Shown here one piece after another: positions 42,111 to 53,804 of a stretch of 64,000 nucleotides of DNA. Source of the stretch: Candidatus Jordarchaeales archaeon (GTDB taxonomy: Archaea; Asgardarchaeota; Jordiarchaeia; Jordiarchaeales; Freyrarchaeaceae); contig JAWAHN010000001.1 of assembly GCA_038889235.1 (NCBI GenBank), forward strand, positions 908,852 to 972,851, given 5' to 3'. The first letter of the stretch is position 1. Every line of letters begins with the position of its first letter. A program made the position numbers and the translations under genes. Below the pieces are notes generated by a model. The model saw nothing but the letters and a program-made list of their open reading frames with translations. It ran no database searches and was not told the DNA's origin.

Positions 42111-42248
42111 TGGTGCGGGGGGTGGGATTTGAACCCACGAACGCGTGCGCCCATACTGGTCTACGCGATGGGCTCCTGAGGCCCACCCCTATGGTCATCC
42201 ACGCCTTTGACTTTGCCTGCAGGACGCATCTGGCTTGGGTACCCCCGC
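42111..42248 (-). tRNA. tRNA-Leu(CAG) with three short insertions and encoded CCA
   Basis: Acceptor GCGGGGG pairs with CCCCCGC, the T arm is GTGGG-TTCAAAT-CCCAC, and the anticodon stem TGGGC/GCCCA encloses CTCAGGA, giving anticodon CAG (42176-42178). CCA is encoded (42111-42113). Without the CCA the gene is 135 nt. Removing 18 nt in the D loop (42212-42229), 16 nt at the end of the D stem (42188-42203) and 14 nt in the variable arm (42146-42159) gives an 87-nt tRNA with D stem CCC/GGG and variable stem CGCG/CGCG. No insertion is at the usual position 37/38. Confidence 0.88.
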
Positions 42249-42267: not shown

Positions 42268-43671
42268 TCATTTGGGTCTATTCGTGCAAACATTTTCCAC
42301 TATATACTCTGCAATCTGCTCGGCTTTTTGTTTAAGTTTTTCTGTTATGTACCCTTTAATAAATGCTTCTTCGAGCGCGTTCTTGTCTATGATTCTTAGA
42401 GTTCCGTCAGGAAGCTGCACAACGTCAATTTCTAGGTCCACATATCTTATTTTTCCAGGGTAAATTTCTATTGGGGTGTTTATGTTGTGAAATGCGCCCT
42501 TGAACTCCCCGTTTTTAGAGTAATATTCTGTTCTGAAGAACCACTCGCCTACCCTAACTCTAGTTATGCCGTAATCTCCTTCCTCTTTCGGAACGTTCAG
42601 TCCGTCATAATATCCCCCCTCAGTGAAGCTTCTCTTTACAACTATCTCCTGATCGTCCTTGTTTTGCAGTATTTTTCCGTGAAGAAACAATACTTTACCG
42701 TCAAGTTTTATGTGCTCAAAGCGCACTTTGCTCCCGTTTTTTAAAGAATCGCTGATAGTCATTTTTTGAAGCGTTTCTTTGATCTCACTTCGCAGCTCTG
42801 GATGCTTTGAAATAAGATTTTCAGCAAAATCGACTAGAAGTGCAACATCGCTCCCCAGTGACTTGTAGAAGTGGTGCCCGTCTATTGTTGGCGTAACGCT
42901 CCCTCTTATTTCGTCCAGTTGTTTTTTTGCGCTTGCGGGGAACTCAGCGATAACGGTTTCGTCGCCTTCCCTAATAAGTGTCGGCTCGTCTACGTTCTCT
43001 GAAAGAGAAATTATTTTCTTCAATTCTTCCCCTATTTCTTCTACTTCTTTTGTAATAAGTGAAAGGTCCGCTTTCCCCGCCGCCGTCCTGAAGATTATGC
43101 CTACCCCAGCAGGTTTCATTTTGTTACCAATCCGGTAGAGCACATTGCGTATATCTCTATCTTTAATTTTATTGCTCACCCCTACATGTCCACTGGAAGT
43201 CAGCACCACGTACTTTCCAGCAATAGCTATCTCCCCAGTCGCCTGTGGTCGCGGATCCACTTCACATATCCTTAGAAGCTGTATTTCCCCTTCTTCTTTA
43301 CAGCTCCCCTTCACAGGAAGCTTCAGACATCCTATATCAGCGATTGCTCTATCTCCACGCTTACCAATTATGCGGCCAACATAGATGGCGTTTAAGTTGA
43401 CTTTAGCTTTACGGATAATGACGTCTTCTAATTCCTCTCTAATTATGTTGACGACCCTTTCCAAGGGTTTTTTCTCACCTGTTATGACCACTCCCTGCCT
43501 GTTCTTTGTGTCGAAAACTTCTACATCTGGAGGTTCCATTGTCCTCTCGATTTTCAGCCTTTCAGCCAACACCGATGAACTTTGGGTGATCGATAAGCCA
43601 TGTTTTAGGAAAAGCTTAGAGAGCGCCGTAGTATAGATTCCTCTAACTCTAACCTGAATTTTTTCTTCCAA
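42268..43671 (-). CDS. fau-1: ribonuclease FAU-1 family protein
   Basis: 467-residue RNA-binding/RNase E/G-like archaeal protein. An S1-like N-terminus (QVRVRGIYTTALSKLFLKHG) precedes an RNase E/G-related core (NAIYVGRIIGKRGDRAIADIG, given as YVGRIIGKRGDRAIADIG; RTAAGKADLSLI) and a C-terminal DUF402 domain (VGEWFFRTEYYSKNGEFKG; YVDLEIDVVQLPDG). TTG 43671 has a GAGGTG SD; an upstream open extension has none. It begins 105 nt downstream of the UPF0147 stop. Confidence 0.85.
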   Translation of the reverse strand: MEEKIQVRVRGIYTTALSKLFLKHGLSITQSSSVLAERLKIERTMEPPDVEVFDTKNRQGVVITGEKKPLERVVNIIREELEDVIIRKAKVNLNAIYVGRIIGKRGDRAIADIGCLKLPVKGSCKEEGEIQLLRICEVDPRPQATGEIAIAGKYVVLTSSGHVGVSNKIKDRDIRNVLYRIGNKMKPAGVGIIFRTAAGKADLSLITKEVEEIGEELKKIISLSENVDEPTLIREGDETVIAEFPASAKKQLDEIRGSVTPTIDGHHFYKSLGSDVALLVDFAENLISKHPELRSEIKETLQKMTISDSLKNGSKVRFEHIKLDGKVLFLHGKILQNKDDQEIVVKRSFTEGGYYDGLNVPKEEGDYGITRVRVGEWFFRTEYYSKNGEFKGAFHNINTPIEIYPGKIRYVDLEIDVVQLPDGTLRIIDKNALEEAFIKGYITEKLKQKAEQIAEYIVENVCTNRPK

Positions 43672-43776
43672 TGCAAAACACCTCTTATCACGTCGTCTTA
43701 AAAGAAAAGAAGGTAACACCGGGGATAATTGCTTGATTAAACCAGCTAAGGTTCTTTTCTTTTCGTTATCCTTCAC

Positions 43777-52139: not shown

Positions 52140-53804
52140 GTGCCCACTCTTGTGCTTAAAGTAAAAAGGATGAGCGAGCTTCTCGGGCGCGAGGTTACCG
52201 CTAAAGAGCTTGAGCAGATTGTTCCTTGGCTCGGAGTGGACATAGAGTCCGTCGGCAGCGACTATGTTAAAATAGAGTATAACCCAAACAGGCCAGACTT
52301 CTCGAGCCAGGAAGGTGTCGCTAGGGCTTTAAGGGGTTTCATGGAAATAGAGACAGGTCTTCCCAATTACGCTGTTAATCCTGGCTCTACAGTCTTAAAA
52401 GTTGATCCGTCTGTTCTTCCAGTAAGGCGCTGGATAGTTTCTGGGATTGTTCGTGGGCTCAAGCTAGATGAAGAACGCATTAGCGAAATTATAGAAATGG
52501 AAGAAGCGCTTGACTGGGCTATAGGCAGAAACAGGGCGATATCGTCCATAGGGCTCCACAATCTTGATGCGGTTAAGCCCCCCTTCAAGTACCACGCGGT
52601 ACATCCTGACGAAATTCGTTTTGTCCCGTTAGACATGGACACAGAATTGTCACTTAGAGAAATACTAAAAATTCATCCAAAGGGAATAGCATATCGCCAT
52701 ATTCTGGAAGGTGCTGAGCGTTACCCTATAATCACTGACCGTGATGGTAACGTCCTTTCATTCCCCCCCATCATAAATGGGGTCCTAACGCGCGTCACAG
52801 AAAACACAAAGAACCTCTTTATAGAAATAACTGGTACGCGCTTGGATGCTGTCTCTGCAGCTCTAAACATTTTCATGACGTCACTTGCAGAGATGGGTGG
52901 CCGTCTAGAGTCCGTAAGGGTTGAGTATCCCGACAGAGTGCTAGTCACCCCAGATCTTTCTCCTTCAAGATGGAAGTTGAACCTCAAAAATGCAAACAAG
53001 CTTTTAGGGTTAAAGTTGAAGCCTGAAGAAGCAGCCAGGTGTTTAGAAAAAATGCGTCTAGGTGTAGAGTGTATAGGCGAGGAGCTTTCAGTGCTTGTTC
53101 CTGCCTATCGTTACGACATAATGCATGAAGTTGACTTGATAGAGGAGATTGCCATAGGCTACGGCTACTTTAACCTAGAACCAACACTTCCAGGCACGGC
53201 TTCTATAGCCGTAGAAAATCCTGTTCAGAAAATCGCAAACAAAGTACGGATGATAATGATTGGTTTTGGCTTCATAGAAGTAGTTAACTTCACACTGGCC
53301 AACTACAAGGAGCACTTCGAATACATGTTGCTTGAAGGCAACCCAGTCAGAATTCTTAATCCTGTAAGCGCTGAGTACAATATACTACGTTCATCGCTCC
53401 TTCCCTGTCTCTTAAAAGTGTTCGCTAACAACAGACATGAGCTCTTTCCGCAGAAAATTTTCGAAATAGGAGACGTTATCGTGTTAGACGAAACCGCTGA
53501 AACGGGAGCCAAGCGCATGTTGCACCTCGCTGGGGCGATAACACACAGTGAAGCCAATTTCACGGAAATCAAATCTGTGGCTGAAGGCATGCTTAGGGAA
53601 ATAGGCGTCCGCAACTATCTATTCACCGCCGTGGACCATCCCAGCTTCATCCCTGGAAGATGCGCCGAAGTGAAGATAGAAGGGCGTCCTATAGGAGTTG
53701 TCGGGGAAATTCATCCAAAAGTATTAAATAACTTTGAACTTGAATATCCTGTAGCTGCATTTGAATATGACCTGCAATTCCTATTAGAGCGTGATAGACC
53801 ATGA
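52140..53804 (+). CDS. pheT: phenylalanine--tRNA ligase beta subunit
   Basis: 554-residue archaeal-type beta subunit: B1 fold LLGREVTAKELEQIVPWLGV, B3/4 editing domain (RNRAISSIGLHNLDAV; PINGVLT-like PPIINGVLTRVTENTKNLF), B5, then a catalytic-like domain (RILNPVSAEYNILRSSLLPCLL). GTG start behind GGGAGGTATG. It overlaps the isochorismatase gene by 4 nt. Confidence 0.95.
   Translation: MPTLVLKVKRMSELLGREVTAKELEQIVPWLGVDIESVGSDYVKIEYNPNRPDFSSQEGVARALRGFMEIETGLPNYAVNPGSTVLKVDPSVLPVRRWIVSGIVRGLKLDEERISEIIEMEEALDWAIGRNRAISSIGLHNLDAVKPPFKYHAVHPDEIRFVPLDMDTELSLREILKIHPKGIAYRHILEGAERYPIITDRDGNVLSFPPIINGVLTRVTENTKNLFIEITGTRLDAVSAALNIFMTSLAEMGGRLESVRVEYPDRVLVTPDLSPSRWKLNLKNANKLLGLKLKPEEAARCLEKMRLGVECIGEELSVLVPAYRYDIMHEVDLIEEIAIGYGYFNLEPTLPGTASIAVENPVQKIANKVRMIMIGFGFIEVVNFTLANYKEHFEYMLLEGNPVRILNPVSAEYNILRSSLLPCLLKVFANNRHELFPQKIFEIGDVIVLDETAETGAKRMLHLAGAITHSEANFTEIKSVAEGMLREIGVRNYLFTAVDHPSFIPGRCAEVKIEGRPIGVVGEIHPKVLNNFELEYPVAAFEYDLQFLLERDRP

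Follow-up and report, generated by a model that had tools for sequence, protein, structure and literature searches.

The tRNA-Leu(CAG) gene described here lies on the minus strand (42111-42248) of the window, i.e. the whole stretch of 64,000 nucleotides that was analyzed. The gene is 138 nt long and encodes a type II tRNA in which every paired element is present. Excision of 18, 16 and 16 nt, in total 50 nt, leaves a flawless 88-nt tRNA with an encoded CCA. Two of the introns are situated in the D arm, at positions 18/19 and 21/22, and the third one in the variable arm. The canonical position 37/38 carries no intron, since the anticodon loop CTCAGGA is unbroken. The gene is composed of the following parts:

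42230..42248, minus strand: exon 1, acceptor 5' strand to G18, GCGGGGGTACCCAAGCCAG; identical in four species
42212..42229, minus strand: intron 1, 18 nt, D loop at 18/19, ATGCGTCCTGCAGGCAAA
42207..42211, minus strand: exon 2, G19 to A21, GTCAA
42191..42206, minus strand: intron 2, 16 nt, position 21/22, start of the D-stem 3' strand, AGGCGTGGATGACCAT
42161..42190, minus strand: exon 3, D-stem 3' strand, anticodon arm with CAG, 5' part of the variable arm
42145..42160, minus strand: intron 3, 16 nt, variable arm after the GTAG loop, ACCAGTATGGGCGCAC
42111..42144, minus strand: exon 4, variable arm 3' strand, T arm, acceptor 3' strand, encoded CCA

The preliminary description had already recognized a type II tRNA-Leu(CAG) with all paired elements and three insertions outside position 37/38, which is borne out by the continuous anticodon loop, by the splicing script described below and by the recurrence of the inserts in three sister species. 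The three places were correctly given, but the inserts add up to 50 instead of 48 nt, because the one in the variable arm comprises 16 and not 14 nt, and the mature RNA has 88 nt with CCA instead of the proposed 87 nt. The middle insert, previously put at the end of the D stem, is more precisely located at 21/22. As stated earlier, this is the only tRNA of the window; no other was found there. An alternative D-loop reading, AGCC/../AGGCTAAG, was ruled out, because under the other reading Leu(GAG), which shares the first intron, requires no second intron. Upstream of the tRNA, on the same strand, a gene at 42268-43776 of the window encodes an RNase E/G-like plus DUF402 protein (FAU-1 type), for which only distant Bathyarchaeota matches with 36-37% identity were obtained.

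Splice motifs and blind recovery of the introns

In the bulge-helix-bulge (BHB) motifs of archaea, the exon bases before the 5' splice site pair with the intron bases before the 3' site. The corresponding central helix is formed by AGCC with GGCA at intron 1 (inner helix TGC/GCA), by GGTC with GACC at intron 2, and by GCGT with GCGC at intron 3 (inner helix CC/GG). The GGTC of intron 2 becomes whole only when intron 1 is gone and G18 is joined to G19. A 4-bp central helix between two 3-nt bulges was found, and it is complete in 13 of the 14 introns that this gene contains in four species, the exception being intron 1 of the window with three of four pairs, which forms all four in the sisters. 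Shuffled introns gave on average 0.4 full helices of 14 and none of 20,000 shuffles reached the observed value; these figures, like those for covariation below, are not strict probabilities, because the sequences are related and the motif itself partly guided the choice of registers. When the parsed sequences were inspected, no outer exon-exon helix adjacent to the bulges, as in the strict hBHBh' motif, was seen, which makes these motifs relaxed ones of the HBh' type.

Covariation was observed in two intron families. Across the Leu isoacceptors, all 32 cells of the 21/22 family pair, and two pairs are changed on both sides (C-G to U-A and U-A to C-G); 30 of 500 shuffles were as good, and sliding the partner lowered the pairing to at most 53%. 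Pairing is likewise complete in the variable-arm family (40 of 40 cells), where three sequences show one pair (C-G to U-A) changed on both sides; here 4 of 500 shuffles were as good and a slid partner reached at most 75%. Free-energy folding, either free or with the cloverleaf stems enforced, supports the splice motifs weakly: the central helix of intron 1 obtained a fair probability in some species only, those of introns 2 and 3 mostly failed, and an order of removal was not shown.

ARAGORN and Rfam at its gathering cut-off found no tRNA in the window, which is to be expected for a gene disrupted in this way, and the genome-wide tRNA search scored it with 26 bits, below the cut-off. The introns were recovered by a script that works from left to right, strips candidate introns with a BHB-like signature and rates the remainder as tRNA. 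It was run blind to the intron locations and with thresholds that had been relaxed once, since intron 2 with its weak inner helix escaped the first setting. The script yielded one good solution with three introns, the same as in the hand derivation, and a mature score of 86, compared to 86-88 for intact archaeal tRNAs and 63 for the runner-up parse. When the intron letters of the window gene were shuffled, none of 60 sequences regained this tRNA or matched the total score, however, the best one came to 78.0 versus 78.1, so that the test was only just passed for the window sequence alone. For a four-intron version from a sister species, the best mature score among 60 shuffles was 63 versus the observed 85. 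The argument is carried jointly by the four species and several isoacceptors. The proposal that the same process might also hit mRNAs found no support, since strict BHB motifs number 7 and 9 on the two strands of the window compared to 3-9 in shuffled sequences; one of the strongest matches is located, on the other strand, inside the intact coding frame 52140-53804.

Sister species, tRNA census and splicing enzymes

ESCRT-II (EAP30) proteins were found in 25 of the 29 genomes of the phylum and in the genome of the window (1.7e-17), while none of 14 control genomes gave a match over the cut-off, which identifies the phylum as Asgard archaea. The class is probably Jordarchaeia/Freyarchaeia. In our collection this order and class are represented by eight genomes, four in the genus of the window and four in a second family. 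The tRNA-Leu(CAG) gene and its three introns recur in all three congeners; across the four species, the exons are 91-99% and the introns 63-76% identical, and the intron lengths vary. Two of the congeners (G002 and G003, loci L032 and L033) harbor, as a fourth one, a 19-nt intron at T-loop position 58/59, which splits exon 4 and displays a full central helix of GTTC with GGAC or GAAC and the inner helix CCG/CGG. The initiator tRNA-Met of the window's genome (L013, around 1500-1600, on contig 5 of G000) also has a T-loop intron at this site, 24 nt in length. In another genome (G007, L034, 480-820), the 3' half of a tRNA-Leu(CAA) was seen, whose 5' half is absent from the roughly 150 nt upstream, pointing to a long intron, a split gene or a fragment.

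The tRNA census, which combined searches with individual genome stretches, revealed introns in 16 of the 17 resolved tRNA genes (94%) of the window's genome, 25 introns in all, with three each in Leu(CAG), Leu(UAG) and Asn(GUU); the count of 17 leaves out Val CAC, a Ser, a Pro-like and a Tyr-like gene and others, which the script did not parse. A second complete tRNA-Leu(CAG) gene, named in the preliminary description as a potential counter-argument, was not found in this 95%-complete genome. CUG codons are in use, with 142 among 12,797 codons. Introns inside the T arm were observed in the genes for Lys(CUU), Asn(GUU) and Gly(GCC) (L025, L019 and the plus strand of L008, G000), of which Asn(GUU) has two in the T arm and one in the D arm. 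The only intron-free tRNA that was resolved, Arg(CCG), is situated on a small contig of 5713 bp (L094, G000 contig 6) together with two tRNA 3'-end fragments lacking clear 5' halves; this contig is perhaps an integrated or foreign element. Moreover, a Leu-like T arm flanked by neither an acceptor nor a D arm (L027, 1501-1522, near 495,040 of G000 contig 2) may be an attachment-site remnant or one half of a split tRNA.

Two EndA-like genes and RtcB are encoded in the genome. The first EndA protein (alpha) matches best to crenarchaeal catalytic subunits (3p1z, 4.4e-47); it keeps the catalytic Tyr/His/Lys and carries the crenarchaea-specific loop, in which Lys-Pro-Lys lines up with K44-P45-R46 of Aeropyrum pernix 3p1z, according to the motif rule of PMC12397907. 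The second one (beta) lacks the catalytic His in the alignment. The alignments hence contain a catalytic alpha subunit with triad and loop lysine and a non-catalytic beta subunit, so that the pair is predicted to adopt the (alpha beta)2 arrangement with the crenarchaea-specific loop. This loop confers broad specificity on the (alpha beta)2 EndA of A. pernix (PMC6379350, PMC12397907). The two systems share the Tyr/His/Lys alpha subunit, the Lys-Pro-(Arg/Lys) loop and the His-less second subunit, but differ in that the host of the predicted heterotetramer is an Asgard archaeon; the loop is named for Crenarchaea.

Proposed processing and competing explanations

Taken together, the locus is very probably a working tRNA-Leu(CAG) gene of an Asgard archaeon with three relaxed BHB introns. 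The putative heterotetrameric (alpha beta)2 endonuclease would cut the transcript at each intron, RtcB would join the exons to the 88-nt tRNA, and we infer that this RNA is then used by the cell. Removal of intron 1 probably precedes that of intron 2, since the exon side of the intron 2 helix (G18 G19 U20 C20a) is whole only after this step. A comparable fixed order of removal has been reported for other archaea (PMC8450103).

That standard tRNA finders missed the gene would also fit to a degenerating tRNA pseudogene with accumulated small insertions. However, all stems and conserved bases are intact once the inserts are removed, the exons, unlike the drifting inserts, are conserved between four species, and the genome yielded no further tRNA-Leu(CAG), which makes such a decay very improbable. 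Even harder to believe is that the RNA functions as a tRNA without being spliced, its D and variable loops simply being enlarged. A long variable arm is natural in type II tRNAs, but the insert at 21/22 disrupts the D arm, insert lengths vary among the species, each insert includes a complement for a splice helix, and the extra T-loop insert in two sisters would hardly be tolerable in a working tRNA. Somewhat less remote, yet still unlikely, is that the introns are real but begin and end a few bases away from the assigned positions, or that only two of the three are excised and the variable-arm insert is kept as a long arm. In this regard, runner-up boundaries in the variable arm of the sisters score near the best ones; on the other hand, Leu(UAA) of the same genome has an intron-free variable arm, CCC-GTAG-GGG, which matches the spliced form, and the variable-arm helix covaries. 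The excision of all three introns thus stays the preferred explanation.

Relation to known multi-intron systems

In line with the preliminary description, the lineage does not belong to the Thermoproteales, but its view that such short introns at non-canonical sites would be unusual outside that group does not hold for this kind of archaeon. In the accessible part of PMC11291895, which concerns the same phylum and probably the same class, introns are reported for 92-95% of the tRNA genes of Freyarchaeia and Atabeyarchaeia, often at non-canonical sites and in more than half of the genes with several introns. The tRNA-Leu(CAG) finding is therefore genuine, but its kind has already been published; that part of the report describes no individual splice motifs, endonuclease or four-intron genes. 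Similarly short relaxed-BHB introns at many sites, with up to three per gene and some removed in a set order, occur in Thermoproteales such as Pyrobaculum (PMC4390854, PMC8450103, PMC4033280), which represent another phylum, whereas one tRNA gene contains four introns in two of the sister species analyzed here. Published statements give up to three introns per tRNA gene (PMC8450103, PMC4390854), and no archaeal tRNA gene with four introns was found in the literature that was searched, the supplementary table of PMC11291895 being outside of that search. The four-intron sister version is the least ordinary part of the finding. It is a tentative proposal, held at slightly below even confidence, that the number of introns in G002 and G003 exceeds the published three, that at least one splice helix requires the removal of another intron, and that five exons are assembled in a partly fixed order.

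Regarding annotation practice, both tRNA searches applied to the window overlooked the tRNA-Leu(CAG) gene. Among archaea, the Asgard group is the one most closely related to eukaryotes. For the question of how tRNA introns multiply, the genus offers this one gene from four species, with either three or four introns, as well as isoacceptors with one to three, hence gain, loss and co-variation of splice helices are directly traceable. Furthermore, the intron load is tied to a predicted endonuclease with the broad-specificity loop outside Crenarchaea.
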